Assembly (NCBI RefSeq): GCF_900113045.1 | Contig: NZ_FONY01000006.1 | Location: forward strand, 124,001-188,000 | DNA: 64,000 bases | DNA from: Thermoflexibacter ruber | GTDB lineage: Bacteria; Bacteroidota; Bacteroidia; Cytophagales; Thermoflexibacteraceae | Direction: 5' to 3' | In this document: one piece after another, positions 29,258 to 47,845 of the stretch | Numbering within the stretch: position 1 is the stretch's first letter | Layout: each line of letters begins with the position of its first letter | Notes under the pieces: generated by a model | Database searches by the model: none | Told to the model about the DNA's origin: nothing | Seen by the model: the letters and a program-made list of their open reading frames with translations, nothing else | Position numbers and translations under genes: made by a program

Positions 29258-29263
29258 GTCTAT

Positions 29264-31153: not shown

Positions 31154-31250
31154 ATTACCAGATAGTTTTAAAATATTGAAATCTCATTTTTGTTCAAATG
31201 TAATTCAAAATTTATAAAATTTATAATTTTTAAGATAAACTACAAATAGC

Positions 31251-32054
31251 GTGATAGAAAACCAGAAAAGTCATTTAATAAAATATTGGGAACATAGATT
31301 TGAGGGGCTGATTTTTAAAGTTTTACCTGATAGAGTCCTACCTTTGCTTGCGGTGGAAATCCGCCATGCTGAAACTAAAGAAGCAAGTTTTGCGGTCATC
31401 GATTACAAAAAAAATCAATTACTTTTCAATGGATTGGGTTTAGAAGAAAATTGGTGGGTAGGTTTAACGGCTTTTTATGCTGGAAAACTATTTTTCCATC
31501 TTTTTGAAGGGAGGGAATATCCTGAGCCTACGGGTTTGGTTGTCGCAGATGCCCTCGAGCAGAGTTTACTTTGGGAGAAAAAAGATGTTTATTTAGAAAA
31601 AGTAGAAGCGCAAGGAGTGCTGGTTTCTCCTTTGAAAAAACAAGGGAAAGAGTTACTACTATTAGATATAAAATCAGGGAACGAACTGAATAAAAAGGAG
31701 TTAGAAAATTTGGGAGGCAATTACGAACAAGTAGCCAATTCACTCACTTTTCCTTCTCAATACACAGAAGGCACAGAGTATTTTAAAACCATTGCGCAGT
31801 TTTTGAAATATAAATTAGGTATAGAAGTCGCTCATAAAATAGATTATTTGGAGTGGAATGAATATATCCTACTCTCTTATTGGGAAGGAAAAAGCAATTT
31901 TCTTCTTTCAATGAATAAAAAAGGAGAAACCTTATTCCATGAGTTGCTCCAAGAAAATGCAGGGAATCAATTAGAAGAAACCTTTTTTTTGGTGAATAAT
32001 TACTTGGTCAGCATAAAAAACAAGCAGACTATTTTGATAAACAAATTGGTCTAA
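31251..32054 (+). CDS. DUF4905 family protein
   Basis: This 267-residue protein uses GTG at 31251; no in-frame ATG occurs near the N-terminus. It contains conserved-looking aromatic blocks, KYWEHRFEGLIFKVLPD, DYKKNQLLFNGLGLEENWWVGL and LFFHLFEGREYPEPTG, with alternating strands resembling a propeller or beta-sandwich. I recognise it as the DUF4905 type found in Cytophagales, whose function is unknown. There is no signal peptide. It ends only eight bases before the opposing dnaG stop. Confidence 0.7.
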   Translation: MIENQKSHLIKYWEHRFEGLIFKVLPDRVLPLLAVEIRHAETKEASFAVIDYKKNQLLFNGLGLEENWWVGLTAFYAGKLFFHLFEGREYPEPTGLVVADALEQSLLWEKKDVYLEKVEAQGVLVSPLKKQGKELLLLDIKSGNELNKKELENLGGNYEQVANSLTFPSQYTEGTEYFKTIAQFLKYKLGIEVAHKIDYLEWNEYILLSYWEGKSNFLLSMNKKGETLFHELLQENAGNQLEETFFLVNNYLVSIKNKQTILINKLV

Positions 32055-32062
32055 ATCGGCTT

Positions 32063-34102
32063 TTACTCAGGCAAAATCACCGTCCCTAAGTCTGCCAGCA
32101 TTGTTTTTTTTACTTCGTTGAGGTGAAAATATCTATCCAAGAGCATTTGCATTGCCTCCTCCTCAGCGGTGTGGAGTTCTTCTTCTATTTCTTTTAATAG
32201 CTTGATAATGAACTTATATTTGTGCCTGATTACGTACTCATACACTGTATTGGGCAGTCGCTCGGCATCGCTTTCGTGAGGAATAAAAATCTCGTGCATG
32301 AGTTCCCAATTTTCGCTGGCTTGGTATTTTTCTGTGGTAACATTTACGACAGTTTCTACTACCTCAGGCGTGCCAAAACGTATCATGTAACTATCATCTG
32401 CCTCAATGCCTTGACCGATCGCTTCTTTGTACATGGTTAGTATTTTGAAGTAAACAGGAGTATGAAATTGCAACTCCTCAATCTCGCTGAGTAAGTATTG
32501 CCAGAGTTTTGTTTCAGAATCTACTTGATAGTTGCCATATTTGAGCAGTAAGCGCACACACTCTCTTTCATGTACCGCAATGGTACGCAAAACTTTGTTG
32601 TCTTTTCGCTGGAATAAAGCAATATCTTCCTCATAATAAATTTCTTGCGAAGGTGTATAGTACTCTTCCGTAGGCAGAGGAATATCGTCTAAAAAGGGAG
32701 GTAAATCTGCGCTTTGTTGCTTTTGCTTTGCTTCATTTCTTTTCTGCTCTTCTTGCTTGCGTTTTTCTTCTTGCAAGCCCTTTTGAATCAGGATTTTATC
32801 AATTTCCACTAAAAGCGTATGTGCCTCTATATCAAAAAGTTCAGCGCATTGCTTGGCATACACTTCCCTTTTGATGCTATCAGGGATTTTGCTAATGCTG
32901 TTAGTAATTTCTCTGATAGCTCCCGCTTTGCGTATAGGGTCTGTTTTTACTTCCCCCAAGAGCATCTCAGCCTTAAAAGTGATAAAATCTTTGGCATTTT
33001 CTTTTAAAAAATCTTTGAAAGCCATGCTACCTACTTTCTGCACGTAGCTATCAGGGTCTTCTCCATCGGGAAAAACCACTGCTCGCACATTCAAGCCCTG
33101 CTCTAAAATCAAATCAATGCCGCGCAAAGAGGCTTTAATTCCTGCATTGTCCCCATCGTAAAGCACAGTAATATTGTCAGTAAAACGCTTGATAAGTCTG
33201 ATTTGCCCTTCGGTGAGCGAAGTCCCCGAAGAAGCCACCACATTGGTAATGCCAGCTTGGTGTAGGGAAATCACATCGGTATAGCCTTCGCAGAGGTAGC
33301 AGTTGTCCTGGTTTCGGATTTCATTTTTGGCTTGGAAAATACCATACAAAACTTCACTTTTTTTATATACCTCATTTTCAGGAGAGTTGAGGTACTTAGG
33401 CTGTTTATCATCTTTTTTTAGAATCCGCGCTCCAAAAGCAATGACTTTTCCTGCTAAATCATACACAGGAAACATTACTCGCCCACGAAATCGGTCGTAC
33501 TGATTGACTTTGCCGTTTTCTTCTTTTTTGATGAGTAAGCCAGCTTTTTCTAAAATTTCTTGTGTAAATCCTTCCTTTGTCGCACTTTGCTCTAAATCAT
33601 GCCAATCGTCTTTGCTGTATCCTAAGCCAAACTTTTCAATAGTTTGTGGGGTAAAGCCTCTTTCTCTGAAATAACTCATGCCCAATGACAAACCTTCTTG
33701 GTCATGTTGAAGTAGTTTCTGGTAATGCCTTTGAGCAAACTGCATGACTATCAAAATACTTTCTCTAAGACTTTGCCATGCTTTGTAATCATCTGTATTG
33801 GTACTTTTATCTTCTTCTATTTCAATATTGTACTTACTTGCCAAATACTTTAAGGCTTCGGGATAGCTCAGTCCCTCTATGTCCATGACAAACTTGACCG
33901 AGTCCCCTGCCGCCCCACAACCAAAGCACTTGTAAATGCCTTTGGCGGGAGCAACAGAGAAAGAAGGCGATTTTTCATTGTGAAAAGGACAGCAAGCCCA
34001 ATAGTTTTGCCCTTTCTTTTTTAAGGAAAGGAAGTCTTGCACCACCTCCACAATGTCAGCACTATCTTTGATTTTTTGAACGGTCTGTGAACTAATCCGC
34101 AT
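32063..34102 (-). CDS. dnaG: DNA primase
   Basis: This 679-residue primase makes RNA primers at the replication fork. The CHC2 zinc-binding domain has Cys38, His41, Cys59 and Cys62. The catalytic core follows with the RNA-polymerase segment (GFGLGYSKDDWHDL, YDRFRGRVMFPVYDLAGKVIAFG) and a TOPRIM domain (CYLCEGYTDVISL with the metal-binding Glu, VLYDGDNAGIKA). The C-terminal helicase-interaction region after about 430 is low-complexity (Lys/Gln/Glu-rich) before a helical end. It is not in the rpsU-dnaG-rpoD macromolecular synthesis operon seen in other phyla. An 8-base gap to the convergent DUF4905 gene leaves no room for a terminator. Confidence 0.97.
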   Translation of the reverse strand: MRISSQTVQKIKDSADIVEVVQDFLSLKKKGQNYWACCPFHNEKSPSFSVAPAKGIYKCFGCGAAGDSVKFVMDIEGLSYPEALKYLASKYNIEIEEDKSTNTDDYKAWQSLRESILIVMQFAQRHYQKLLQHDQEGLSLGMSYFRERGFTPQTIEKFGLGYSKDDWHDLEQSATKEGFTQEILEKAGLLIKKEENGKVNQYDRFRGRVMFPVYDLAGKVIAFGARILKKDDKQPKYLNSPENEVYKKSEVLYGIFQAKNEIRNQDNCYLCEGYTDVISLHQAGITNVVASSGTSLTEGQIRLIKRFTDNITVLYDGDNAGIKASLRGIDLILEQGLNVRAVVFPDGEDPDSYVQKVGSMAFKDFLKENAKDFITFKAEMLLGEVKTDPIRKAGAIREITNSISKIPDSIKREVYAKQCAELFDIEAHTLLVEIDKILIQKGLQEEKRKQEEQKRNEAKQKQQSADLPPFLDDIPLPTEEYYTPSQEIYYEEDIALFQRKDNKVLRTIAVHERECVRLLLKYGNYQVDSETKLWQYLLSEIEELQFHTPVYFKILTMYKEAIGQGIEADDSYMIRFGTPEVVETVVNVTTEKYQASENWELMHEIFIPHESDAERLPNTVYEYVIRHKYKFIIKLLKEIEEELHTAEEEAMQMLLDRYFHLNEVKKTMLADLGTVILPE

Positions 34103-34183
34103 GAGTAATAAAGAAGATGGAAAAATTTACCAAATACAAATTTAAGCGAAAAGTTCGATAAATTATTCGCATTTGATAGTCTT

Positions 34184-37100
34184 CTAATCCTTTATCCCTG
34201 TTACATTTTCAGGTTTGTTGATTTGCCACTCAAATTTGTCTGCTTTTTTCTTTCTTGGGAAAACCTCGTTCAGATTACCTGCATCGTACAAGCGTCCATT
34301 CTTCATCACATATTTTAGTGTATTGGAATTTCTAATATTTTCTAAAGGATTTTTGTCCAAAATCACTAAATCAGCCAATTTCCCCACCTCGATAGAGCCC
34401 AAATCTCTGTCTAAGCCAATAGCCGTAGCCCCTAAGATAGTCGCTACTCTGAGGGCATCGTGGTTGCTCATGCCTCCTGATTGGACTGACCAAAGTTCCC
34501 AATGATAGCCTAAACCTTGCAGCTGCCCATGACTTCCTATGCCTGCAAGTCCTCCACTTTCTACTAAATTTTTCATAGATTGAGCGTGTTTGACAAATAC
34601 GTGTTCTTCGGGCATAAACCAAGAGCCACGTCTTCGAGATTTTGCAGCTAACTCCTCATAAGGTGTAAAATATTGGAGCTTGGCATCTTTGTAAGGACTT
34701 TCAGTAGCATAATAATAGTTTTCAGCCCAAGGACCTCCATAAGCCACTAATAAAGTAGGAGTTACGCACATTTTTGAATCAGCAATGGATTGATATACGT
34801 CTTTGTAAATAGGGTAAATCGGCAGAGCGTGTTCGTGCCCAGGATAGCCGTCAAGGAGTTGGGTCATGTTGAGCTTGAAATCTAAGCCTCCTTCGGTAGT
34901 GGGCATTAGATTCTGTTCCTTAGCCGCCATGATAATCCATTGGCGTTGTTGGCGATTGCCCGTGAGGTACATTTTGATGGTTTTGGTATTGTAATATTTA
35001 CTATACTGTTTCAGAATTTTTCTGGTTTGGTCTAAATCTTTCAGGTTATACGCCCAAAAACCTACCCCAGGTCCTGTAGAATAGATGCGAGGACCAGGGA
35101 TAGCACCTGCTTCTACCATGTCGGCATAAGTCAATACATCAGTAGTCGCCGTTTGCGGGTCGCGGGTAGTAGTTACCCCATACGCCAAATTTGCGGCGTA
35201 CATCCAAACATGGTTTTTATGCAAGCCCCAATAAGGCCACATGTGGGCATGAGTATCTACAAATCCAGGGATAATGGTTTTTCCTGTTACCTCTATGACT
35301 TGAGCATTAGCAGGTATGCTCAGAGTGCCACTTGCTCCCACTGCCTTGATGCGGTTGTTTTCTATCAGAATATCTCCATTTTCTATGATTTCTTTGCCTT
35401 TCATGGTAATAATTCTTGCTCCTTTTAGCAGCGCAATGCCTTGGGGAATGTCTTTGGCAAAGTTTACTTTGATTTCGTATTCTTTAGCCTCGTATTTGGT
35501 GCTTTTCTTTTCGTCTTTTTTAGTTTTATCTTCTGTGGTTTTGTTGTCCTTTTGTGTAGTGTCTTTGGCAGCTAATCTTTTTCTCTCGGCTTCTTCTTTT
35601 TGTGCCAATTTGACACTGTCTTCAAAGGTTTTTGCCTTGTCCAAATCATAGACAAAATGAGATGCTCCTAACGACCAATGCACTTTTTTGCCATCTCCAG
35701 ACCATGCAGGAAACTCGCCTCCTAACTCTGTGAGTTTGCGAGCAGGGAAAGAGGCATTGGTCGGGTCTGCTACAGAAATACTTGGTGTTTTTCCTGCTTT
35801 AGGAATAGTAACAGTGTAAATCTCATTGTTGATTTGAGCGAGGGCTTTGTCGCCTTCTGGGGCAATCTCTATTTGGGAAGCTACACTTGGGCGATTCATC
35901 TCCATTTCTTGGAAATTTTCAGGCAACATACACAAATAGGCTTTGTCAAAATGCACAGTTCCAAAGGTAGTAATGCCTGTAATTTTAACGTGAGATTTTT
36001 CATCTGTGCCGTCCCAGCGCATAGAAATCAAACCTTCCTCAAAAGAATTAAGATAAACTCTGTCGTCATTTTTAGTAAAATGGGGATTGGAACGACCATA
36101 AGCCTTAGTAATGACATTTACCGCTCCTCCATTATCCGCAATCCAGCAAATATCCTCTGCTGTATTAGGTTGGAAAGGGTCGACAGCATCTTTGTAAACC
36201 TGATTGCTTCCACGCATAAAAGCAATGCGATTGCTTTTGTAAGACCAAGCCAACTCTGTATAAACCGCAGGGGTATTGGTGAGTTTTTGAGGAGCAGTTT
36301 TACCATTGGCACTTACCTTATAAATATGTCCTCCGTCTTCTGCCCAAGTAGTAAAAGCAATGAAGTTTCCATCGGGCGACCAAGTAGGTTGAGCTTCTGT
36401 AAAGTTAAAATTGGTCAATCTTTGTGGTTTTCCATTGGGGAAGTCCATGACATAGAGGCGATTGAGTGCGGTAAAAGCTAATTTTTTACCGTCAGGAGAA
36501 GGCACAGCATCGCGTATTTGTGTAGCTAAAAGTTCTTTTTCATCTTTGATAGGATATTTGAACTCTAAGCGAGGTCCCATTTCCAACTCTATATCTACGT
36601 CCAAAGGAATTTCTACTGAGGAAGAGCCATCAATGCTGATTTTATATATTTTCCCACCATAAGAGGTAATCAAAAATTTGCTGTCAGGAGTAAAAGCCAT
36701 ACCAGGCAGTACGCCCATCAAAGCAATAGATTCTTGCTCATCACGCTGAACGGGGTAAGCCAGCCATTTTTCATCTCCATTTTGTAAGTTTCTAATAATC
36801 AGTCCCGTTTTGTCTTCGTAGCGCGTTCCATACACTAACCATTTGCCATCTTTGGAAAGCACAGGGGTAAAAGCAGAGCCATAGCGAGAGGTAATGACTT
36901 GGTTTTTCCCTGTTTCGCGGTCATACACTCCTATTTGGTACTGAGGAAGTTGGGCATTGTAGTTCCAAGCTCCAAAGCGGCGAGAATAATATACATAGCG
37001 TCCATCAGCACTTACGGCAGGGTCATAAGCACGCATATTTTCTGGTTTGTCCACCAAGTGGATGCCTCCACCGCCATCTTTGTGGAACATCCACAGTTGC

Positions 37101-37612
37101 ACTGTTCTTCTTCCTCTTGCCGCAATAATGTACTCTCCGTCAGGTGTCCAAGCAGCAGAGGTATGGTTTTGGTCGCGGTCTTTGGTGATTTGTAGGGTAT
37201 CTTTTTTCTCTAAATCAATCCACCAGATATTTTCCGCCCCACTTTTATCAGAAGTAAACAAAATTTTCTTCCCGTCGGGGCTGTAGCGCGGGTGAGTATC
37301 ATAAGCCAAACCTTTGGTGATAGGGGTAGCTTTCCCTCCACTGATAGGCATGGTATAAATATCTCCCATCATATCAAAAACGATATTTTTTCCGTCAGGA
37401 CTGACATCTAAGGAAATCCAAGTACCTTCTTTGGTATTGAAAGAGATTTTGCGTTCAGGTTCGAGAGGAAGTTCTTTTGTTGCTTTTTTTTCTTTCTTAG
37501 TAGAGTCGGCTTTGCTATTTTGGGCATCTTGCGCTAAAAGAGAAGTGGTACCAAAACACCACATTGCACAAGCAACACAAAGCCAGTACGGCAATGTAAT
37601 TTGATTTTTCAT
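34184..37612 (-). CDS. Secreted TolB-propeller amidohydrolase
   Basis: At 1142 residues, this protein has a signal peptide (about 1-28), a low-complexity Lys-rich linker, and two stretches of TolB/WD40-like propeller repeats (about 50-650) recognisable by recurrent SPDGKKI-type turns. A Lys/Thr/Glu-rich linker (about 680-720) leads to an amidohydrolase TIM barrel (about 730-1110) with the metal pair in VDTHAHMWPYWG, then HEHALPIY and GIGSHGQLQGLGYHWELW. It probably acts in the periplasm or outside on a cyclic amide or peptide-like substrate. It starts 21 bases after the tubulin-like gene stop on the same strand, so the two are probably co-transcribed, for which I have no explanation. Confidence 0.9.
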   Translation of the reverse strand: MKNQITLPYWLCVACAMWCFGTTSLLAQDAQNSKADSTKKEKKATKELPLEPERKISFNTKEGTWISLDVSPDGKNIVFDMMGDIYTMPISGGKATPITKGLAYDTHPRYSPDGKKILFTSDKSGAENIWWIDLEKKDTLQITKDRDQNHTSAAWTPDGEYIIAARGRRTVQLWMFHKDGGGGIHLVDKPENMRAYDPAVSADGRYVYYSRRFGAWNYNAQLPQYQIGVYDRETGKNQVITSRYGSAFTPVLSKDGKWLVYGTRYEDKTGLIIRNLQNGDEKWLAYPVQRDEQESIALMGVLPGMAFTPDSKFLITSYGGKIYKISIDGSSSVEIPLDVDIELEMGPRLEFKYPIKDEKELLATQIRDAVPSPDGKKLAFTALNRLYVMDFPNGKPQRLTNFNFTEAQPTWSPDGNFIAFTTWAEDGGHIYKVSANGKTAPQKLTNTPAVYTELAWSYKSNRIAFMRGSNQVYKDAVDPFQPNTAEDICWIADNGGAVNVITKAYGRSNPHFTKNDDRVYLNSFEEGLISMRWDGTDEKSHVKITGITTFGTVHFDKAYLCMLPENFQEMEMNRPSVASQIEIAPEGDKALAQINNEIYTVTIPKAGKTPSISVADPTNASFPARKLTELGGEFPAWSGDGKKVHWSLGASHFVYDLDKAKTFEDSVKLAQKEEAERKRLAAKDTTQKDNKTTEDKTKKDEKKSTKYEAKEYEIKVNFAKDIPQGIALLKGARIITMKGKEIIENGDILIENNRIKAVGASGTLSIPANAQVIEVTGKTIIPGFVDTHAHMWPYWGLHKNHVWMYAANLAYGVTTTRDPQTATTDVLTYADMVEAGAIPGPRIYSTGPGVGFWAYNLKDLDQTRKILKQYSKYYNTKTIKMYLTGNRQQRQWIIMAAKEQNLMPTTEGGLDFKLNMTQLLDGYPGHEHALPIYPIYKDVYQSIADSKMCVTPTLLVAYGGPWAENYYYATESPYKDAKLQYFTPYEELAAKSRRRGSWFMPEEHVFVKHAQSMKNLVESGGLAGIGSHGQLQGLGYHWELWSVQSGGMSNHDALRVATILGATAIGLDRDLGSIEVGKLADLVILDKNPLENIRNSNTLKYVMKNGRLYDAGNLNEVFPRKKKADKFEWQINKPENVTGIKD

Positions 37613-37633
37613 AGTTTAAAATTTTTTACTTTC

Positions 37634-39256
37634 CTATTTTCTAATTTTATGTAATGCTTTGAAAGTCTGATAAATATGATAAAGTAGTCGTTCCCCTATT
37701 TTAGCAGATTCGAAATCAGAGGCAGGTTTTAGGTTTGGGTCTTCTCTAAATTTTTTCAAAAAAGTATCATAAGGCTTAGGACTACTGAGCCAGCCACCGT
37801 CCCCCTCAAATTGATATTCTTTGGCATCTAATAGCTGTCCCCAATTATACTTTTTTAAGCCATTAGCATCTGTTTGAAAGCTATTGACGCTAAACAAGAA
37901 ATGCTCGTCAGTAGAACTTTTTTGTACCTGCCTAAGCCAACCGTCTTGGATATGACCATTGGCATAAGAGAAAGCAAACATTTTCAAGAAGTTATTGATA
38001 AATTTGGCTTCTTCTTCAGTAAGGTCTTTGTAGTCAGCGATGTTGTATTTGCTTGACAAAGCACTGACGAAGTTTTTAATATCGCCGTCTTGGTGATTTT
38101 GTACCATAAAACTCAAAGCATAAAAAGCAGTCCACTTGTCCATGAGCTTGTACTGCTCTTCCTGCCCTACAAAGTCAGCAAAGGTGAAGTCAAATCGCTC
38201 ATTGTCATTGACTATAGTTTTGTATAGGATTTTATGTTCTCCTTTTTTTATACTGCTGTCTTTAAAAAAATCATAAGCAGCACTGGCACACATTAGCTCT
38301 ACTACATGAGCCACATTTTTCTGCTCTGCTCCACCCGTAGTGGTACTTTTTCCAGTTTTTCCCTCATCGTAGTTGAGCAGTCTCGAAGACCAGCCCACAT
38401 GATACATTCTTTGATAAATATTGCGAATAGTGCTGTCTGCCTCATAAAACATCAGAGCGGCTTGGGAATTGAGGGAAAACTTATCAGCATCTGCAATGAC
38501 TTTTTCTTGAGCAAGTTGCTGGTTAGTAGGCTTATTGAAGGTAAAATAGTTGGTGAGCAGGGTCGTACCAAAAAGCAACTCCTCTGCTATATTGGCTGTG
38601 CTGTCCCAAATTTTTAAGGCATCTTTCAAGGCTCTGGGAATCACAGGAATAGATGAAGCCCCTGTACCTCCAAAAATAGAACCCATGATGAATACCCTGA
38701 CTTGTTGCCCACTCAGTCCAGCATCAGAAAGTCGCTTTAAAAAGGCAGTAATATCATCGGGTTTGGCACTTTTTTCCCCATTTTTTATTTTAGTAACTTC
38801 CTCTAAAATAGCATGATACATCAAGTAAGAACCTACATGTGTTTGCGCTCTGTATCCATGAGAAAGGTCAAACTCTTGTACCTCTTTGTCAAACAACAAA
38901 CTCATTAAGTCTTCATTATTTTTGTTTACATGTCTGTCTGTACTTTGCCCTAACTTACTGACTAAGCGAAAGGTACGGTTTGTTCCTGAGTACTCGGGCG
39001 AAAAGCGAAAAAGGTGAATATTAGCAGAGAAAAAAGAATCTCTTAAGGCTACTTGCTTGCCTGTACTATCTTTTTTGATACGGATATAGGTATCTATGAG
39101 TTGTTCAGATTGGCTTTTATTTCCGTTGTTTGTATCTGTATCTAAGGACAAAATATCTATTTCTTGCCCATCAAATAGTCCGCAAGCGGCAAGATGAGTA
39201 AAAGCCTCTAAACACCTCATTCCCGTTCCGCCTACCCCAATGAGAAAAAGTTTCAT
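37634..39256 (-). CDS. Tubulin/FtsZ-superfamily-like protein
   Basis: This 540-residue protein has an N-terminal nucleotide-binding loop GVGGTG at 7-12 after a hydrophobic strand, a SLDTDTNN strand end near 37-44, and FGGTGASSIP at 195-204 in a position comparable to the tubulin signature GGGTGTG. This matches the bacterial tubulin-like (Tubulin_2) proteins and their FtsZ-like relatives, which are thought to bind GTP and in some lineages act with membrane-remodelling partners. The protein lacks a signal peptide and spans, so is cytoplasmic. It is not the cell-division FtsZ: it is longer and the motif spacing differs. Neighbours are an OmpA/PD40 gene upstream and an amidohydrolase downstream. 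GTP binding and filament formation are inferred, not shown. Confidence 0.78.
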   Translation of the reverse strand: MKLFLIGVGGTGMRCLEAFTHLAACGLFDGQEIDILSLDTDTNNGNKSQSEQLIDTYIRIKKDSTGKQVALRDSFFSANIHLFRFSPEYSGTNRTFRLVSKLGQSTDRHVNKNNEDLMSLLFDKEVQEFDLSHGYRAQTHVGSYLMYHAILEEVTKIKNGEKSAKPDDITAFLKRLSDAGLSGQQVRVFIMGSIFGGTGASSIPVIPRALKDALKIWDSTANIAEELLFGTTLLTNYFTFNKPTNQQLAQEKVIADADKFSLNSQAALMFYEADSTIRNIYQRMYHVGWSSRLLNYDEGKTGKSTTTGGAEQKNVAHVVELMCASAAYDFFKDSSIKKGEHKILYKTIVNDNERFDFTFADFVGQEEQYKLMDKWTAFYALSFMVQNHQDGDIKNFVSALSSKYNIADYKDLTEEEAKFINNFLKMFAFSYANGHIQDGWLRQVQKSSTDEHFLFSVNSFQTDANGLKKYNWGQLLDAKEYQFEGDGGWLSSPKPYDTFLKKFREDPNLKPASDFESAKIGERLLYHIYQTFKALHKIRK

Positions 39257-39340
39257 AAAAAATTTGACTTAAAAATGTAATTCTGAGTAAAGAAAATAAA
39301 TTTTATGCAGACTTTCTAATGAAGGCAATTTTTATTTTAT

Positions 39341-39427
39341 TAGGACTTTTGTCTTTTACATGATAATACATGAAAGAGAGCAGAAAGCTGTTTTTCACAT
39401 AAAAACACATGAAAAACATAAGTCCTA
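39341..39427. repeat. Inverted repeat between OmpA/PD40 and tubulin-like genes
   Basis: TAGGACTT (39341-39348) and AAGTCCTA (39420-39427) are exact reverse complements about 70 bases apart. Between them lie repeated ACATGA / ACATAA motifs (CATGATAATACATG). The arms are short and no U-tract follows, so this is a possible structured spacer or regulator site rather than a clear terminator. Confidence 0.45.
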
Positions 39428-39466
39428 TTTATATTTAGAAGGAGATAGACAAAGCTAACATTGCAT

Positions 39467-41884
39467 TTATCTTTCCACAATCGCAAAATCAATCCTTCTG
39501 TTCTCAGCGTGTTGAGCTTCTGTGCATTGGATTTTATAGCAATCATTTTTCATTTTGGTTGCTCCCAAAGAATAAATAGCAATGAAACGTTTTCTATCTA
39601 TACCTTTTTTTAACAAATAACTTACAGCAGCATTGGCACGCTGGCGAGAAAGTTCCTCATTGGCTTTGGGTTTGTCGGTATTGTCTGTATGAGAAAATAT
39701 GCTAACTTTCAAACCTTCATGCTCTTTTAAAATTTTAGCCACTGCGTCCAATTGGGTTTGTACTTCTTCATTAAAAGTAATTTTTCCCGCAGGATAATAA
39801 ATAGAAGGCAAGGTAAATGTCAAAGGCACAGGCTTGTAATTGACTGCTCGCATCGGCAGAATTGCCTCTACTACTCTCCCTGACTCTATGCCTATCATGC
39901 TTACATCTATGTAGTCATTGGCTTGGTATTTTTCTTTGACTGCCCAAAGCTGATAGTTATAGAGTGTATCTACTACAAAAATGGCTACTCCATTGTCATC
40001 AGTCTGTCCTTCGTAAGTTTGTCCTGTATTTTTATTTCTCAAACCTACGGTAGCCCCTATCAAAGCTCTGCCATCTTCTGTATCGGTAACTATCGCTCTG
40101 ATAACTGCTCGGCGTTTATTTTGTATTGTCTTGGTCAAAGGTATTTGCAAGTCGAGGGTTTGAGCAGAATTCTTGCGGACTGTATAAATACGATAAGGCA
40201 AGCTAATGTCAAAGCCTTCTTTGAAAACAGTCAGTTTATAACTTTTATCTTGTTGTAAATCAAAGGTATATTTTCCTTGCAAGTCAGCATAGACTTCTTT
40301 CACCTCCTTCGAACCTGTTTCTTCTAAAAGCAACCTTGCATCTGGGATAGGTTTTTTTATAATTTCTGAAATTGTATCTTTTTCTATTACTTCTATATTG
40401 AGCCTAAAACGGTAAGTGTTTGGGGACATGAGCATATCTATACTCACAGAGACAGGACGCAAGATACCAAAGGTAGAAAACTCATAATCTTTGGTAGTTT
40501 GGTAGTTTAGCTTAGTTACAGCTAACTGATAGCGTTTTTCATTCTGTACGATAAAGCGATACTTGCCACTATTATCAGTAAAGCCGATGCGAATGTCGTC
40601 ATTTTCTATGTCCCTAATTTTGACAATGGCTTTTTTGATAGGCTGTCCTGTAATACTATCAAATACATTGCCTGTAAGTTCAAAGTTGAACTGTCCAAAC
40701 ACGTCTGCACCGCCGTCAGTAATATTCCGAGAAATATTGAGTAGCAAGGTATTAGACCTGTAAATATCAAAATTCCCTCTACGGTTAGAGGCAAAGTATC
40801 CTATTCTTTTGGAATCATTGATAATGAAAGAGATATCATCATCTTCGGAGTTGATAGGTGCACCTACATTTTTTACTTTTTCAAAAAAATCGCCTATTTT
40901 CTTGGCTTCGTAAATATCAAATCCCCCCATGCCTCCTTGTCGGTTAGAAGCAAAATACAAATTGCCGTCTTCGTGATAGAAAGGGGTAATCTCATCGGCA
41001 GGGCTATTCACTTGACTACCCAAGTTCTGGGGTTCAGACCAAGTACCATTGGCTTGTTTAGTAGTTACATAAATATCTGTACCTCCATAGCCACCGGGCA
41101 TATTGGAAGTAAAAAATAAGTATTTTCCATCTGGTGAGATAGAAGGATGGGCAATAGAATAGTCCTCAGTTTCAGGAATCTGCACGGGAGAAGCACTGAA
41201 CCACACACTTCGGCTTACTCTGGCTTCGTAAAGCGAAGACTTACACAGCTTTATTTCTTCCTTATCAAAAATATTTAAAGGTAAAGGATTGGTCTTAGCA
41301 AAAAAAATGTGTTCCCCGTTTTCTAAAAATTGCGCCCCTACTATATTACTTTTTTGTGCTTGACGCACTGCCGTATAAATGCGTCTTTGTTCTCTCATGC
41401 TATCTGGGTGAGTCACAAAAAATACGCGGGTGCGTGAGGGTTTATTCCAAGCTGTAATGCCTAATTTGAGTGGATATTTATCCTTTAAGCGATGAAAAAA
41501 CAAACCTTGCCTGTAAAAAACAGGGAATAGCTCATCTGATTCTGTGTTGAAACGCAGTAATTTGATAGAAAAGCGGTAAGATTCTGCAAAAAACTCAGGG
41601 GCTTTCAAAGACCGTACATTTTGCATAGTCGAGTCTTGCTTGCTAAAATTGAAAAGACCGGGAAGCAAAGGAGTGGTTTTTTCTGTATTTTCCTCAAAAG
41701 TTGGTCTTTGAGCAAACAAATTATAGGAAAGGAAAAAGCAAATAAAAAAGAAAACAAGGAAACATACCAATGATTTTTGACAAAAGTAGGATAACTTTTT
41801 TAGATGATTGATAGCAAGTAGTTTAACATCTAAAAAGCCCAAGTAATACTTTATGTGTAATATCTGTACGTGTATATGATTCAT
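39467..41884 (-). CDS. OmpA-family protein with PD40 and carboxypeptidase-regulatory domains
   Basis: This 805-residue protein begins with a long N-terminus and hydrophobic segment ending FLSYNLFAQ near residue 57 (a signal peptide if the true start is later than ATG 41884, for instance TTG at residue 15). PD40/WD40-like blades lie at about 220-370 (HPSISPDGKYLFFTSNMPGG, NLYFASNRQGGMGGFDIYEA), three carboxypeptidase-regulatory-like beta domains at about 395-660 (GQPIKKAIVKIRD, GKYTFDLQQDKSYKL, RALIGATVGLRN), and an OmpA peptidoglycan-binding domain at about 690-805 (HTDNTDKPKANEELSRQRA). A similar domain order occurs in PorE-like type IX secretion proteins, though these usually also have TPRs. 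A cell-envelope anchor or assembly role is inferred. Confidence 0.87.
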   Translation of the reverse strand: MNHIHVQILHIKYYLGFLDVKLLAINHLKKLSYFCQKSLVCFLVFFFICFFLSYNLFAQRPTFEENTEKTTPLLPGLFNFSKQDSTMQNVRSLKAPEFFAESYRFSIKLLRFNTESDELFPVFYRQGLFFHRLKDKYPLKLGITAWNKPSRTRVFFVTHPDSMREQRRIYTAVRQAQKSNIVGAQFLENGEHIFFAKTNPLPLNIFDKEEIKLCKSSLYEARVSRSVWFSASPVQIPETEDYSIAHPSISPDGKYLFFTSNMPGGYGGTDIYVTTKQANGTWSEPQNLGSQVNSPADEITPFYHEDGNLYFASNRQGGMGGFDIYEAKKIGDFFEKVKNVGAPINSEDDDISFIINDSKRIGYFASNRRGNFDIYRSNTLLLNISRNITDGGADVFGQFNFELTGNVFDSITGQPIKKAIVKIRDIENDDIRIGFTDNSGKYRFIVQNEKRYQLAVTKLNYQTTKDYEFSTFGILRPVSVSIDMLMSPNTYRFRLNIEVIEKDTISEIIKKPIPDARLLLEETGSKEVKEVYADLQGKYTFDLQQDKSYKLTVFKEGFDISLPYRIYTVRKNSAQTLDLQIPLTKTIQNKRRAVIRAIVTDTEDGRALIGATVGLRNKNTGQTYEGQTDDNGVAIFVVDTLYNYQLWAVKEKYQANDYIDVSMIGIESGRVVEAILPMRAVNYKPVPLTFTLPSIYYPAGKITFNEEVQTQLDAVAKILKEHEGLKVSIFSHTDNTDKPKANEELSRQRANAAVSYLLKKGIDRKRFIAIYSLGATKMKNDCYKIQCTEAQHAENRRIDFAIVER

Positions 41885-42006
41885 TTCTTTTTATTCAAAG
41901 CAAGCCTGTTTCATTCTCATACTTGCAAATTCCTTGCCTACTGTTTTTCAAAACGTAATTACATCATTTTTTGTATAATTACGAAATAAAAAATAAAAAT
42001 GTAAAC

Positions 42007-43155
42007 CTATTCCACCGCTACCAATACTTTTTCTAAACAAGCCGTAAACTGCTCATTAAAAAAGTCCATTTCTTGTTGAGCAAGGTTTAGGGCAGGCAGC
42101 AAACGAATCGTATATTTGTCGGAGGAAGAACCCGTAAATATTTGATAATCTTTTACTAAGATATTTCTTACTTCCTTGCAAGGCATCTCTAAAGCAACGC
42201 CTATCATTAGCCCTTTTCCTCTTACTTCTTTTACACCTTCTATTTTCTTCAGCTTTTCTATCCATTCGTTTCCTGCTTTCTCAGCGCGTTGGATTAAGTT
42301 TTCTTCCTTGATTACGTCCAATACAGCTACTCCCGCCGCACAAGCCAAGTGATTTCCGCCAAAAGTAGTTCCCAACATTCCGTAAGTAGCTTTAAACTTA
42401 GGGCTTATCAGTACGCCTCCAATAGGAAATCCATTACCCATGCCTTTGGCTGTAGTAATCAAATCGGCTTGGATACCAGCGTGTTGGTGGGCAAAAAACT
42501 TTCCTGTCCTTCCGTAGCCAGACTGTACCTCATCGGCAATCAGGACGGTATCGTATTTATCGCAAAGTTGGCGTGCCGTCTGCCAAAACTCCACTGAAGG
42601 CATAAAAACCCCGCCTACGCCTTGTATGCCCTCAGCAATGACTGCACAAATTTCGCCTGTACTTAGGTGTTTTTCTAAAGCCTCTACATCATCAAAAGGA
42701 ATAAAAATCACATTAGGCGTTTCGTTGATAGGAGCAACGATTTTAGGGTTATCTGTAATCACGACTGCCCCTTCTGTTCTTCCATGAAACGAGCCTTTAA
42801 GGGCAATTACTTTTTTGCGTCTGTTGTAAAATGAAGCCAATTTTAAGGCATTTTCGTTGGACTCAGCCCCTGAGTTAGTAAGGAAAAGCTCGTAGTCAGG
42901 ATAGCCAGAGAGTTCACCCAATTTGTAGGCTAATTCTTCTTGGATAGTAATTTGGACAGAGTTGGAGTAAAAAGCAATTTTATTCAACTGTTCAGTAATT
43001 TTGGCGACATAGTGCGGGTGCGTATGCCCGATGGAAATTACAGCATGACCGCCGTACAAGTCTAAATAACGCTTTCCCTTGCTGTCCCAAACGTAAGAGC
43101 CTTGTGCTTTTACCAACTCTATATCAAAAAGTTCATAAACATTAAAAAGTTTCAT
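42007..43155 (-). CDS. argD: Acetylornithine/succinylornithine aminotransferase
   Basis: This fold-type I PLP enzyme transfers the amino group from glutamate to N-acyl-glutamate semialdehyde in arginine synthesis. I start at ATG 43155, giving 382 residues beginning MKLFNVYELFDIE, a form common in this family; the frame is open to a GTG at 43179. Conserved pieces are LTNSGAESNENALK, GSFHGRTEGAV, IADEVQSGYGRTG and the Schiff-base Lys237 in TTAKGMGNGFPIGG. In Bacteroidota the preferred acyl group is often succinyl. No other arg genes are adjacent. Distinguishing it from lysine-pathway (lysN-like) aminotransferases would need phylogeny. Confidence 0.9.
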   Translation of the reverse strand: MKLFNVYELFDIELVKAQGSYVWDSKGKRYLDLYGGHAVISIGHTHPHYVAKITEQLNKIAFYSNSVQITIQEELAYKLGELSGYPDYELFLTNSGAESNENALKLASFYNRRKKVIALKGSFHGRTEGAVVITDNPKIVAPINETPNVIFIPFDDVEALEKHLSTGEICAVIAEGIQGVGGVFMPSVEFWQTARQLCDKYDTVLIADEVQSGYGRTGKFFAHQHAGIQADLITTAKGMGNGFPIGGVLISPKFKATYGMLGTTFGGNHLACAAGVAVLDVIKEENLIQRAEKAGNEWIEKLKKIEGVKEVRGKGLMIGVALEMPCKEVRNILVKDYQIFTGSSSDKYTIRLLPALNLAQQEMDFFNEQFTACLEKVLVAVE

Positions 43156-43177
43156 TGGCTTATTTAGTTTTATACTC

Positions 43178-43208
43178 ACATCTAAGGTTTACGAAACCTG
43201 TCAGATGT
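43178..43208. repeat. Nested palindrome, AAACCTGTC-type element
   Basis: ACATCT pairs with AGATGT and inside this AGGTTT pairs with AAACCT around ACG, giving a two-part hairpin. AAACCTGTC-containing palindromes are, from memory, frequent dispersed elements in Bacteroidota genomes. It lies 23 bases upstream of the argD ATG and could sit in its leader. Confidence 0.55.
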
Positions 43209-43369
43209 AAAAGATTGTTTTGGGTATAGATAAAATTTACCCCCTTAAACAAAAGATAGATACGATAAGTTTCAGTTCTTTCGGACAATGGAGTAAGTTT
43301 TATAACTTAATTTTCAATTAATCACTTTGTATTTTTCTTAAACAACATCATATAATGGTATAGAATTGC

Positions 43370-43789
43370 TTACCCTAAGAAATGCAAAATAGCCAATCTA
43401 TATCCATCTAATCCAAATCCACAAATGAAACCTTTACAGTTTTTGCTGAGATAGCTTTTGTGACGGAACTCCTCTCGGGAATAAGTATTAGAGATATGTA
43501 CCTCAATGACAGGGGTTTTGATAGCTTTGATAGCATCTCCCATAGCAATAGAAGTATGCGAGTAGCCTCCTGCATTTAAGACGATGCCGTCATAGCCTCC
43601 AAAACCGCACTCATGTAACTTATTGATAAGTAAGCCTTCTACGTTGGATTGATAGTACTCTAAGGTAACTTTGGGAAATTTTTGTTGCAGAATCTCGAAA
43701 TAAGCCTCAAAAGTCTGCAAACCATAGATTTCTGGTTCTCTCCTTCCTAAGAGATTCAAATTGGGACCGTTGATAATAATAATTTTCAT
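43370..43789 (-). CDS. aroQ: Type II 3-dehydroquinate dehydratase
   Basis: This 139-residue protein is of normal type II size. It forms a dodecamer that dehydrates 3-dehydroquinate to 3-dehydroshikimate in the shikimate pathway. Diagnostic segments are IIINGPNLNLLGRREPEIYG, the VLNAGGYSHTSIAM loop and VHISNTYSREEFRHKS with its catalytic His and conserved Arg. The Tyr in EIYG fits the catalytic loop. It stands between argD and nadD on the same strand, with 126 bases separating it from nadD. No other aro gene is in the window. Confidence 0.96.
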   Translation of the reverse strand: MKIIIINGPNLNLLGRREPEIYGLQTFEAYFEILQQKFPKVTLEYYQSNVEGLLINKLHECGFGGYDGIVLNAGGYSHTSIAMGDAIKAIKTPVIEVHISNTYSREEFRHKSYLSKNCKGFICGFGLDGYRLAILHFLG

Positions 43790-43915
43790 TTTTCTAATGC
43801 GTATAATAAAATAGTAAAAAAAATGCGTTTAGTACGATTGAAAAACAAACCTATTGAAAATAAAGTAGATAATCAAGTGTAAAGAATATTTAGCTTAGCA
43901 AGTTACTCAAAATGA

Positions 43916-44488
43916 TTACAAATAAAAACCTTTTACCCGAATCAGAGTTTCTACGTCTTCATGCACTAAGTATTTGATAGACTGACGGTTGCGTATCAGA
44001 TTTCTAATATAAGTAGCTGAGAGGTCTATCAAAGGAGCAGAGATAAACTTCACTTTGGGGTGAGAGTGAAAGGGGGTCTGCTCAACGTAAGGACGGGGAT
44101 ATACTAAAACTTCGTAATACTCCAAGATTTTATCGTGATTTTTCCACTTCTCAAAACCCTTGAGATTGTCCTCACCGACTATAATTTTGAACTCATGCTG
44201 AGGATATTTTTCTTGCAAGTAAGTAAGTGTGTCAATGGTATAGCTGGGTTTGGGAAGGTGAAACTCTATGTCTGTAACATTAAGTTTTTCATTGTCAGCA
44301 ATCGCCAAACGCACCATATCGAAGCGGTCAAACTCATGCAAAAGTGAAGTGTTTTTTTTGAAAGGATTGTGAGGGGAAACTACTAACCATACTTGGTTTA
44401 CCTCAGGACTGTTAGCAATAGTATTGGCAATAATCAAATGTCCAATATGAATAGGGTTGAAAGAGCCAAAAAATAATCCAATTTTCAT
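43916..44488 (-). CDS. nadD: Nicotinate-nucleotide adenylyltransferase
   Basis: This 190-residue enzyme makes nicotinate adenine dinucleotide from nicotinate mononucleotide and ATP in NAD synthesis. I start at ATG 44488 (MKIGLFFGSFNP); the frame extends four codons to a TTG at 44500. It has the nucleotidyltransferase motif FGSFNPIHIGHL, WLVVSPHNPFKK near 38-50, FKIIVGEDNLKGFEKW and the C-terminal LSATYIRNLIRN. It is cytoplasmic and essential. It is followed by aroQ on the same strand with no functional link. Confidence 0.95.
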   Translation of the reverse strand: MKIGLFFGSFNPIHIGHLIIANTIANSPEVNQVWLVVSPHNPFKKNTSLLHEFDRFDMVRLAIADNEKLNVTDIEFHLPKPSYTIDTLTYLQEKYPQHEFKIIVGEDNLKGFEKWKNHDKILEYYEVLVYPRPYVEQTPFHSHPKVKFISAPLIDLSATYIRNLIRNRQSIKYLVHEDVETLIRVKGFYL

Positions 44489-44611
44489 ACTTTTGTGCAA
44501 TTTTTAATAAAGTTTGTGCTTTTAATGATTGTATTTTAGCGTTTTTGATTGTTGAGAAAAAAGAAAAATTAACCAAAAATAAGAAACTTATACCTGAACC
44601 ACCAAACTGAT

Positions 44612-45586
44612 ATGCCCAAAATCCTGATTATTCGCTTTTCCTCTATTGGAGATATTGTCTGGACTACCCCTATTATTCGTTGTGTGAAACAGCAAGTTCC
44701 TGATTGTGAACTACATTTTGCTACTAAAGCGAGTTATGCAGAAATGTTGGCTGCCAATTCGTACATAGATAAACTTTTTTTACTCAAAGATAATTTAGGG
44801 CAGCTTACTCAAGAGTTAGCCCAAGAAAAATACGATTATGTAATTGATTTACACAAAAATCTGCGGACTTTACGCATGAAACTGAGCCTTTCAGGAAAAA
44901 AATTTACTTACAAAAAATACGTAATAGAAAGATGGCTTTTTGTAAAGCTGAAGATTAACCGAATGCCCGATTCTCATATTGTGGATAGGTACTTTGAGGC
45001 AGTTGCTTCTTTGGGTGTAAAGAACGACGAGAGAGGTTTAGACTACTTTATTCTGCCTGAGCATGAGATAGATACAAAGCAATACCTTCCTTTAGCGTTT
45101 CATCAAGGCTATGTAGCTTACGTAATAGGAGGGAGTGAAGCTACTAAAAAATTACCTTTAAATAAAATGGTAGAGTTATGTGAAAAAATTAATCGTCCTA
45201 TGGTCTTAGTAGGTGGCAAAGAGGATATTGATAATGGAAATAAATTGGTTGAAATCATTAACTCTCAAAGTAAACAAGCAATTATCAATCTTTCAGGAAA
45301 GCTAAGTATTAGCCAATCTGCTTCCATAGTTAAGCAAGCGGAGCGAGTGATTGGGCATGATACGGGCTTGACTCAAATAGCGGCAGCTTTTCACGGAACG
45401 GTTTATTCTATTTGGGGAACGACAACGCCGCTTTTCGGCATTAAACCTTATACGAAAAATTCTATTTTATTAGAAAATAAAAATTTAGACTGTCGCCCAT
45501 GCTCCAAAGCCGGGGCACCTGTTTGTCCTTTGGGGCATTTCAAGTGTATGAATGACTTGGATTTGAGCCAATTAGAACTTATTTAA
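44612..45586 (+). CDS. Glycosyltransferase family 9 (heptosyltransferase-like)
   Basis: This 324-residue protein fits the GT9 family (ADP-heptose:LPS heptosyltransferases and relatives): ILIIRFSSIGDIVWTTPII at the start, a variable acceptor half, and a C-terminal GT-B donor half with YVIGGSEATKKLP, PMVLVGGKEDIDN, ERVIGHDTGLTQIAAAF and WGTTTPLFG. The end has a Cys-rich CRPCSKAGAPVCPLGHFKC segment typical of many GT9 members. It likely adds a sugar to the lipid A core region at the inner membrane, but the donor is unknown. It is 10 bases upstream of trpF, likely sharing a transcript. Confidence 0.9.
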   Translation: MPKILIIRFSSIGDIVWTTPIIRCVKQQVPDCELHFATKASYAEMLAANSYIDKLFLLKDNLGQLTQELAQEKYDYVIDLHKNLRTLRMKLSLSGKKFTYKKYVIERWLFVKLKINRMPDSHIVDRYFEAVASLGVKNDERGLDYFILPEHEIDTKQYLPLAFHQGYVAYVIGGSEATKKLPLNKMVELCEKINRPMVLVGGKEDIDNGNKLVEIINSQSKQAIINLSGKLSISQSASIVKQAERVIGHDTGLTQIAAAFHGTVYSIWGTTTPLFGIKPYTKNSILLENKNLDCRPCSKAGAPVCPLGHFKCMNDLDLSQLELI

Positions 45587-45596
45587 CCCAACAATT

Positions 45597-46238
45597 ATGA
45601 AAATCAAAGTTTGTGGAATGAAAGAATCAAGCAATATTATAGAAGTGGTCAATTTAGGAATTGATTACGTGGGCTTTATTTTCTATGAAAAATCTCCTCG
45701 CTTTGTACAAGACGATTTCTCCTTTCCCAAAGATTTCACTTTGCAAACTAAAAAAGTAGGTGTTTTTGTAAATCATTCCTTGCAAATAATTGTAGAAAAA
45801 ATTATTAAATATCGTTTAGATTTAGTACAGTTGCACGGCAATGAAACCGCAGATTTTTGCCATCATTTGAAAATGAAACTTGCCTCTTTGGATAGTTTTA
45901 TGCCGCAAGTAGAAATCATCAAAGTTTTTAGTATAGGAGAAAGTTTTGATTTTAAGCAGTTGGAGGCTTACAAACCATATATAAATTACTTTCTTTTTGA
46001 TACCAAAGGTACTAACTTAGGAGGGAATGGCGTTGCATTTGACTGGAACATACTCAAAAACTACAAACATGAAGTACCCTTTTTTCTAAGTGGGGGGATT
46101 GATGTGCAACACGTGCCAGAAATTAAGCATTTAAGTAGCCTACCCATTCACGCTGTGGACATCAACAGCCGTTTTGAAGTTAGTGCAGGTTTCAAAGATG
46201 TAGAGAAGATAAAAAAATTCAAACAATCATTGCTTTAA
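45597..46238 (+). CDS. trpF: Phosphoribosylanthranilate isomerase
   Basis: This 213-residue TIM-barrel enzyme catalyses the Amadori rearrangement of N-(5-phosphoribosyl)-anthranilate in tryptophan synthesis. The start KIKVCGMKESSNI holds the conserved catalytic Cys, GVFVNHSLQ is typical of the family, LVQLHGNETADFC is diagnostic, FDTKG-type residues carry the catalytic Asp, and FFLSGGIDVQHV and AVDINSRFE bind phosphate. No trpE, C, D, A or B accompanies it. It sits 10 bases after the GT9 gene, and its stop is only three bases from the convergent GT2 gene stop. Confidence 0.95.
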   Translation: MKIKVCGMKESSNIIEVVNLGIDYVGFIFYEKSPRFVQDDFSFPKDFTLQTKKVGVFVNHSLQIIVEKIIKYRLDLVQLHGNETADFCHHLKMKLASLDSFMPQVEIIKVFSIGESFDFKQLEAYKPYINYFLFDTKGTNLGGNGVAFDWNILKNYKHEVPFFLSGGIDVQHVPEIKHLSSLPIHAVDINSRFEVSAGFKDVEKIKKFKQSLL

Positions 46239-46241
46239 AAA

Positions 46242-47387
46242 TTATTTTTTTACCAAGACACACCTAATTTGCTTATGGTAAGTAGTTTCAAAAGCATAAT
46301 CAGCTATATAATTTTGATTTTCTGCAATAAAATAAAACAAAAAATCTCTAACATTGATAAAATTCACTGCTTCGGTTTCAAAGGTAAATAGTTCGGTGAT
46401 TCGGTAAGAAATTTTTGTTTTTTCCAATAACTGATTTATTGTTGAAAATAAATGTCCAAGACGCGATTTTTCTTGTACCTTTATAGGTGTAAACTCCTGA
46501 TTAACTGATATATGTTCTCCTTTTTGGAGGGAGAAAAATGCTTGAGAAAACTTAACAAAAGACTGCAAAGTAGGATACTCAAAAGCAAAAGCATATGAAA
46601 AATTCCCAGCCTTTAATAATTTTAAAGCTACTCTTTGTTCATTAAACTCTTGATTATCAATGAGTTTTTTCAGATAGGGTAGGGGAGAGACTATTTTTTC
46701 CTTAGCATATTTTTCCATAGCTTTGAGCCAAAGGGCAGGCATGAGGTCTTCGTTAGAAGCAGAAGCGTGCCATTGGTGAAAGGTCGGGGCTTCATTGATA
46801 CTCAATATCTTTCCTTGTACGCCTGCGGCTAAAAGCCTCTTTTTCAAATCCATGTCTTCTACTCCCCACACTTTAAAATACTCATCATACCCCCCTATTT
46901 CGTGCATTTTTTCCTTAGGCATAGCGATTAGTCCTGCGGCAAACTCTGTGCTACTGACCTTGTAAGGATAGGTTTTGGAGAAGTCCAAGTTTTGACAATT
47001 TTGCTGATTTTCAGGTAGATAGTAACATTGGTATTGCACAAAAGAATTTTCATCAATCTTATTTTTAAGTAAGTCAGTAAAGTTAGGCGGATAAATCAAA
47101 TCTATGTCGACAATAACTAAGAACTGTCCTTGTGCTTGCAATATGCCCAAATTAATTGCGTGGGAGCGTGACCAAAACTGGTATTGAGTATCAAAAAAGT
47201 AGTATTTTACTTTGGGAAATGTGCCGCATAGTTTTTCCGTTGCTTGCTGTATGGCTAAATCGCTCCCATAATCTATGAAAATGACTTCAAAATCAGCAAA
47301 GTTTTGATTTTGAATAGATTGTAGGCAGTTTTTTACGCGAATACTATCGCGATTCCTATACGGGACGATGAAGGAAAAAAATGTCAT
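46242..47387 (-). CDS. Glycosyltransferase family 2 with galactosyltransferase-type C-terminus
   Basis: At 381 residues, this begins with a GT-A fold (FSFIVPYRNRDSIRVKNCLQSI) and has the metal-binding DxD in IVDIDLIYPP. A later EFAAGLIAMPKEKMHEIGGYDEYFKVWGVEDMDLKKRL block is the glycosyltransferase 7C-type element with its EDMD motif. The C-terminal 150 residues are unusual and unassigned. Substrate is unknown, presumably cell-surface polysaccharide. Its ATG overlaps the TGA of the upstream DUF1801 gene (ATGA), implying translational coupling. Confidence 0.87.
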   Translation of the reverse strand: MTFFSFIVPYRNRDSIRVKNCLQSIQNQNFADFEVIFIDYGSDLAIQQATEKLCGTFPKVKYYFFDTQYQFWSRSHAINLGILQAQGQFLVIVDIDLIYPPNFTDLLKNKIDENSFVQYQCYYLPENQQNCQNLDFSKTYPYKVSSTEFAAGLIAMPKEKMHEIGGYDEYFKVWGVEDMDLKKRLLAAGVQGKILSINEAPTFHQWHASASNEDLMPALWLKAMEKYAKEKIVSPLPYLKKLIDNQEFNEQRVALKLLKAGNFSYAFAFEYPTLQSFVKFSQAFFSLQKGEHISVNQEFTPIKVQEKSRLGHLFSTINQLLEKTKISYRITELFTFETEAVNFINVRDFLFYFIAENQNYIADYAFETTYHKQIRCVLVKK

Positions 47388-47845
47388 TTACTTTTTTTAA
47401 TTTGTGCCTCGTATAAAGCAATCCACTGTTCGGGTGAGATTTTTGAAGCCAACTCCCCAATGAGTTCGTAAGGGATAGCCTCTATTTTTTTGAAGCGAAT
47501 ACAACTTTTTCCCATGTCTAATTTAGTTTTGCTGTATTTAGGATATTCATTAACAAACCAATTCAGGATAGTTGGGTCGGCATATATACCCATGTGATAA
47601 ACAGCAATAAAATTTTTCTGAGAGGCAATATTCAAAAAAGGTAAGGCTTGCTTGGGGTCGCAGTGATAGCCGCTTGGATACAAGGAATGAGGGATTACAT
47701 AACCTATAGACCCGTAAGTCATGGCTTCTACAAAACCCGAGGGAAGATTTTGGACAATGGTTTCTCTTAATTGGCTCATAGGTTTTTTCCTATCTTCTGG
47801 AAGAGAGGCGAGGTATTCTTCTACTGTAAAGGCTTGTGATTGCAT
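47384..47845 (-). CDS. DUF1801 domain protein
   Basis: This 153-residue protein has the DUF1801 (YdhG-like) pattern: FTVEEYLASLPEDRKKPMSQLRE at the start, FVEAMTYGSIGYVIP, and a FLNIASQKNFIAVYHMGIY strand and LDMGKSCIRFKK near the end. The family is widely distributed and its biochemical role is unknown. It is cytoplasmic by lack of signal. The stop codon overlaps the start of the GT2 gene by four bases, but that does not imply a shared pathway. Confidence 0.88.
   Translation of the reverse strand: MQSQAFTVEEYLASLPEDRKKPMSQLRETIVQNLPSGFVEAMTYGSIGYVIPHSLYPSGYHCDPKQALPFLNIASQKNFIAVYHMGIYADPTILNWFVNEYPKYSKTKLDMGKSCIRFKKIEAIPYELIGELASKISPEQWIALYEAQIKKSK

Follow-up and report, generated by a model that had tools for sequence, protein, structure and literature searches.

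What does a tubulin-like protein that is not FtsZ do in Thermoflexibacter ruber, and with which partners does it work? The window, meaning the whole stretch of 64,000 nucleotides that was analysed, contains the gene that raises this question, here called TUB, and the argument below refers to the following features:

37634..39256, minus strand: TUB, an ORF of 540 aa encoding a tubulin-like GTPase-family protein; uninterrupted frame, Pfam Tubulin_2, without a linked partner in this lineage
39221..39238, minus strand: GVGGTG, TUB residues 7-12, equivalent of the T1 nucleotide loop; glycines 9, 10 and 12 unchanged across 18 homologues
38651..38674, minus strand: FGGTGASS, TUB residues 195-202, equivalent of the T4 (tubulin signature) loop; F195-G199 invariant in 18 homologues
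38297..38323, minus strand: QxNxxHxxE, TUB residues 312-320, putative T7/H8 counterpart where a modelled helix (315-332) begins; Q312, N314, H317 and E320 invariant in 18 homologues

The first-pass annotation of this DNA had described a 540-residue protein with GVGGTG at its N-terminus and FGGTGASS near residue 195, and the uninterrupted ORF carries both at the positions given. Similarity across relatives beyond chance confirms the ORF as real: the protein is 90% identical in genome G002, 67% in G005, 51% in G013 and 51% in G137, and the frame is intact in all five genomes of this window clade, the window's own genome (G000) included. Pfam Tubulin_2 (PF13809) matches residues 5-234 with 31.2 bits (gathering score 27; E 1.8e-7), spanning profile positions 2-210 of 356, while PF00091 Tubulin scores 20.4 bits, under its cut-off of 33. 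An NCBIfam scan returned no family for TUB, the curated ftsZ model TIGR00065 included. Since the genome has a separate ftsZ, above the TIGR00065 cut-off, on contig C33, TUB is not the division FtsZ. Its earlier assignment as a tubulin-superfamily protein other than FtsZ is thus supported. By sequence, the links to tubulin-superfamily proteins of solved structure are weak: the single sequence searched with phmmer against the PDB gave only unrelated matches and no tubulin, and an 18-row TUB profile reaches CetZ/FtsZ-type chains at E 0.006-0.01. At the locus itself, PHROGs gave a chance-level match only, and Rfam and tRNA scans gave none.

Does the protein also fold like a tubulin? An AlphaFold2 model of full-length TUB (540 aa, five alignment rows) was poor, with a mean pLDDT of 49.5, a pTM of 0.57 and low confidence for the C-terminal 195 residues. 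Foldseek found nothing for it at E 0.001, and the best 50 VIA rows were all FtsZ, tubulin, CetZ or PhuZ (Z 10.2-12.7). Residues 1-345 modelled alone reached moderate confidence only (pLDDT 62.9, pTM 0.71). With this model, Foldseek gave 17 matches at E <=0.001, all to FtsZ, CetZ, TubZ or microtubule entries. The TM-scores were low, at 0.3-0.4, and two unrelated entries stood among the best 50 listed; the best 50 VIA rows were FtsZ, tubulin or CetZ without exception (Z 12.4-13.9, 3.3-4.7 A over 182-218 residues). The structural comparison proposed in the first-pass annotation bears out its assignment, and the GTPase domain is predicted to have the tubulin fold through helix H7/H8, residue 345 of the model aligning near residue 225 of EcFtsZ. 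The catalytic loop on helix H8, which had been named as a feature to look for, presents a divided picture: the FtsZ T7 motif NxDxxD, searched for as N-x-[DE]-x-x-[DE], occurs nowhere in the 540 residues, whereas a different invariant polar motif, QxNxxHxxE, is present. From its invariance and its place in the model, we propose this motif as a non-canonical counterpart of the T7 loop and helix H8. An hhalign comparison of the TUB profile with nine FtsZ sequences aligned 56 columns around T4 with a probability of 1.9%, too weak to place T7.

The first-pass annotation sought the function of TUB next door. From position only, it suggested a possible operon of TUB with the envelope genes for an OmpA/PD40/CarboxypepD-reg protein and a secreted propeller amidohydrolase, and the arrangement is indeed as it described: the three genes are co-directional, with 21 bases to the amidohydrolase (start 37612), a gap that would permit its co-transcription, and 210 bases to the OmpA-type gene (end 39467). 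We compared the window ORFs starting at 29000-48000 by BLAST with the fetched stretches around TUB in G002, G005, G013 and G137, in which TUB itself is conserved down to 51% identity. Only TUB and one unrelated weak match, to an ORF at 46242, 7 kb away, in G137, were found; neither neighbour was seen, and the surroundings of TUB differ among the four relatives, varying freely, which the first-pass annotation had itself named as grounds for refutation. In G002 the contig extends for only some 500 bases past TUB on its downstream side, and those bases hold a different gene. The neighbours are likewise absent beside TUB in more distant annotated loci, and the promoter and terminator scan does not decide transcription here, its counts not standing out from those of shuffled sequence (8 promoter-like sites where 5.7 were expected, and 1 terminator-like site where 2.0 were). 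On the stretches compared, we reject the operon of window neighbours, and a functional link of TUB with these two proteins is very unlikely. The case is a warning against inferring function from neighbours in a single genome.

Two other ORFs of the window deserve a remark of their own. A frame of 1,469 aa (12080-16489, minus strand) combines an AcrB/D/F-type RND pump (residues 5-1045) with an OEP domain (1292-1467), an efflux pump fused to its own outer-membrane channel domain. In a protein of 494 aa (60754-62238, minus strand), PorP/SprF (type IX secretion) is combined with an OmpA domain at the C-terminus; the protein weakly matched the MotB profile introduced below and lies outside the TUB module.

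If not its neighbours, what accompanies TUB? Whole-genome profile searches of 241 genomes of the order point to one very large protein, here called GIANT (longest frames 1,112-1,330 aa). TUB occurs in 69 genomes and GIANT in 69, and 68 of the 70 genomes with either have both. In the apparent TUB-only genome (G238), a local profile search finds GIANT beside TUB (L086), and the GIANT-only genome (G114) is 72% complete. Some of these genomes supplied rows of the profiles and match by construction (15 of the 69 for TUB, 8 of the 69 for GIANT), the GIANT proteins of G000, G002, G005, G013 and G137 not being among the rows. Within the window's family (f1), both genes are present in 4 of 13 genomes and neither in the other 9. 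A Fisher test of the co-occurrence gives 4e-58, a value that ignores relatedness and is descriptive only, not a probability of function. A sample of 345 genomes of the phylum yielded 11 TUB matches; all 9 that exceed 100 bits come with GIANT, four of these genomes belonging to the order already counted. The two weak TUB matches lie in frames of 1,622 and 1,691 aa without GIANT (L084, G446:C35; L085, G500:C26) and possibly represent another Tubulin_2 branch. Five weak GIANT matches in the same sample (25-30 bits, frames of 299-514 aa) were taken for generic ASKHA proteins.

The two genes are also mostly neighbours. They lie no more than 2,500 bases apart on one contig in 57 of the 68 genomes, and on one contig at 2.6, 3.9, 6.8 and 234 kb in four more. 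In the remaining seven they are on different contigs: in G000, G002, G005, G013 and G137, which form the window clade, and in G052 and G101, where these contigs are short, so that linkage is undecided. In one locus (L036, G009:C157:6-4871) a single frame of 1,630 aa is a fusion of TUB followed by GIANT. This fusion sits in genus g4 together with G005, one of the genomes with dispersed genes, so that two very different forms exist in one genus. Both genes are split over several frames in L088 (G093:C1:3504067-3509327) and in G088:C133, each time in the same genome, possibly as broken genes or through sequencing errors.

Around this pair, further genes recur. Among 47 other fetched loci with a strong TUB, from outside the window clade, GIANT is present in 45, a lipoprotein of type LIP or LIP8 in 42, a membrane protein (TM) in 39 with the profiles used, DN in 35, MotA in 22 and MotB in 19. 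These loci were picked by TUB from unevenly sampled genomes, with only part of the 69 TUB genomes fetched; the count leaves aside L084 and L085, with their weak TUB and different large proteins, and L019, which is on the same contig as L023. In L049, the choice of an antisense ORF masked TUB in one annotation of the loci. The usual gene order is LIP-TM-TUB-GIANT, followed in part by DN-MotA-MotB, and in Bacteroidales it is LIP8-TM9-TUB-GIANT-A16. The LIP proteins begin with a signal-like segment that contains a cysteine, and they carry a VYLExSGSM-type motif, which reads as possibly vWA-like and finds no Pfam support; TM has three hydrophobic segments. The MotA proteins of the module just pass Pfam MotA_ExbB, and in L030 MotB matches PADLOC ZorB1 at E 4.8e-14 and MotA matches ZorA1 at E 2.6e-5. 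The connection to the envelope drawn in the first-pass annotation fails for the window neighbours and lives on in an altered form: homologues elsewhere share their loci with genes for a lipoprotein and for a three-helix membrane protein, the latter kept, unlinked, in G000.

The sequence of GIANT suggests that it is an ASKHA ATPase. Family members carry the motifs of this superfamily in the expected order, phosphate-1 DFGxxN, phosphate-2 D[IV]GG[GS][ST] and GKG/GxG; in the GIANT of G000, the phosphate-1, phosphate-2 and adenosine motifs read FDFGSNN, DVGGSTTD and GKGG. The family profile finds MreB as its best PDB match (E 0.002), with Hsp70-type chains also matched. Weak Pfam matches among ten members are to Ppx/GppA (5, with E 1.1e-5 in the best member), EutA (5), FtsA (4), MreB (4), SrfB (2) and HSP70 (2); for the GIANT of G000, a Pfam scan at E 1 gave no match. 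From the present data, actin-like and Hsp70-like uses of this fold are indistinguishable. GIANT could be imagined as a chaperone of the Hsp70 kind or as an assembly factor, with TUB as the protein that it folds or takes apart and no filament system involved. Its profile matches to Hsp70-type chains besides MreB, together with the spread of weak Pfam similarities, would suit such a role, as would the lack in TUB of a canonical T7, the loop through which each FtsZ subunit of a filament activates the GTPase of the next. This explanation leaves the linked membrane protein and lipoprotein unaccounted for, and we consider it unlikely.

In the window's own lineage the module is dispersed. TUB of G000 is on contig C50, GIANT on C57 (C57:127396-130896, E 8.7e-130) and TM on a third contig (C31:66173-66559, E 4.2e-37), the latter two outside the window. 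TM is also apart from TUB in G002, G005 and G013; a profile search did not find it in G137, a genome that is 84% complete. In G005, a LIP8-type lipoprotein was found among the frames scanned on yet another contig (E 7e-47), placing four components on four contigs. The surroundings of GIANT in L044-L047 and L081 contain no other module gene. G034 is intermediate: TUB, a 167-aa frame and GIANT share a contig, and LIP8-TM9 is on a different one. In G000, searches with the LIP-type and MotA profiles turned up no convincing gene; an ORF of 202 aa on G000:C61 was considered as LIP and not counted, as it matches LIP profile positions 1-67 only and is unmatched by the LIP8 profile. The MotA profile likewise found nothing in G002, G034 and G137, and weak partial matches only in G005 and G013; the two genomes positive for MotA are profile rows and match by construction. 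In another genome (G015; L029, L048), the halves LIP-TM-TUB and GIANT-DN-MotA are 234 kb apart, apparently a second, independent break-up.

Separation has not ended the common history of the two genes. Trees were built from 46 TUB-GIANT pairs, after 6 of 52 TUB loci (L021, L033, L075, L086, L079 and L088) had been set aside because their partner was short or absent. For both proteins, the five genomes with dispersed genes group together as a single clade (support 0.96 for TUB and 1.0 for GIANT), and they branch in the same order within it. TUB and GIANT distances correlate at 0.96 over the 46 pairs, a value that none of 999 permutations reached and to which shared species history contributes. 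Against G002, dN/dS (NG86) is 0.030 for TUB, where a dS of 2.3 is near saturation and makes the value indicative only, and 0.053 for GIANT (dS 1.1), an indication that both are under purifying selection. The simplest history is a single break-up of the operon in the ancestor of the clade, followed by joint vertical retention. The dispersal in this clade speaks for a shared role that is independent of the operon.

Might the window's TUB nevertheless be a relic in decay, left behind when this lineage lost the operon? In favour of this, the gene is solitary, with no linked LIP, MotA or TM. A gene in decay would hardly keep an intact frame in five genomes together with its invariant loops and so low a dN/dS; that of GIANT is low as well, and GIANT and TM are retained elsewhere in G000; we find the idea scarcely credible. 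A better case can be made for an anti-phage or other conflict system, as the module is found in only 69 of 241 genomes of the order, patchily within families, and the MotA/MotB-type proteins that end many of its operons resemble ZorA/ZorB of Zorya. Against it, no PADLOC family matches TUB, nor GIANT, LIP, DN and TM where these were scanned, the NCBIfam Zorya models score far under their cut-offs, and MotA is the very component that the window clade and G034 appear to lack or to hold as partial matches. Moreover, dispersed genes that are vertically co-inherited are not expected of a mobile defence cassette. Such a function for the module is therefore quite unlikely in our estimate.

TUB and GIANT occur together across genomes, lie close to each other in most of them, are fused in one and are both kept after dispersal; it is very likely that they work together. 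Our reading of the module as a whole is that the window's TUB is the GTPase of a Bacteroidota module with TUB and GIANT as its core and TM and LIP as further parts, and we regard it as probable. In this scenario, TUB would bind GTP and assemble in the cytoplasm, presumably turning over GTP and polymerising. GIANT would bind ATP and act on TUB as FtsA acts on FtsZ, contacting the assembly and recruiting, tethering or remodelling it. TM may anchor the pair by attaching it at the inner membrane, and could pass the state of the pair to LIP on the far side, the whole serving to shape or guard the envelope. In the window clade, the ancestral operon would have been broken up, its genes lying at separate places and yet being inherited together. 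The FtsA-like mechanism at the envelope is the tentative part, somewhat less likely than not. Equally tentative is its generalisation, by which an additional apparatus of the FtsZ-FtsA kind may be present in many Bacteroidota. In it, a GTPase with the tubulin fold would depend on a giant ATPase with the actin fold, a small membrane protein would connect the two with a lipoprotein that faces the periplasm, and in some lineages a MotA/MotB-type ion-channel pair would possibly power it; in the window clade it would be a dispersed, vertically inherited housekeeping system. If true, bacteria would pair the two great cytoskeletal folds in a second way. Because the putative actin/Hsp70-type ATPase accompanies TUB so strictly, the idea is open to direct test, namely of binding and of coupled nucleotide cycles.

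How does the module compare with known systems? As a tubulin-fold GTPase and a putative ASKHA ATPase at the membrane, TUB and GIANT would work like FtsZ and FtsA. In contrast to them, TUB has no NxDxxD, GIANT is about three times the size of FtsA (in G000, a 419-aa ORF upstream of ftsZ is read as ftsA), a lipoprotein and a small membrane protein act as partners in this reading, and linkage between the genes is lost in this clade. With Zorya the module shares MotA/MotB-type proteins resembling ZorA/ZorB on the 3' side of many TUB operons; it differs in that no PADLOC model of a Zorya effector matched among the proteins scanned and in that MotA was not found in G000. SrfB (Pfam PF07520) is, like GIANT, very large, and is weakly similar to two of ten GIANT members (E 0.056), a match far below significance; in the open-licence literature we found no paper that pairs SrfB with a tubulin-like protein, nor one in which such a protein has a very large partner of the actin/Hsp70 type.

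The closest relatives are the Tubulin_2 proteins, set apart from FtsZ and tubulin for their divergence and sparse distribution in the part of the literature drawn on here (PMC9871819), known since 2010, although the literature found assigns them no function. They were defined as FtsZl1 by Makarova and Koonin (2010; PMC2875224), who, in the portion of the paper available to us, suggested that they remodel membranes as part of a system that also has vWA, GTPase and OmpA-type proteins; their alignment includes a Bacteroides sequence. An arrangement of FtsZ-like with OmpA/vWA proteins, of the kind that the first-pass annotation had considered new, was already put forward there. Like FtsZl1 (PF13809) as described in that portion, TUB passes the Tubulin_2 cut-off and keeps T1 and T4 with no canonical T6-T7, and its homologues stand in operons with a lipoprotein bearing the putatively vWA-like motif, membrane proteins and OmpA/MotB-type proteins. 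The window locus itself has no FtsZl1-type operon (vWA, GTPase, kinase or OmpA-type partner), its upstream OmpA-type gene not being conserved; TUB also differs from FtsZl1 in having only 540 aa and in the lack of an operon throughout the window clade. Most distinctive is the recurrent giant partner with actin/Hsp70-type motifs, of which that portion of the 2010 paper makes no mention. Thus, as far as these sources extend, TUB is a member of the described FtsZl1/Tubulin_2 family, and its giant, putatively ASKHA-type partner is the new element relative to the literature found.
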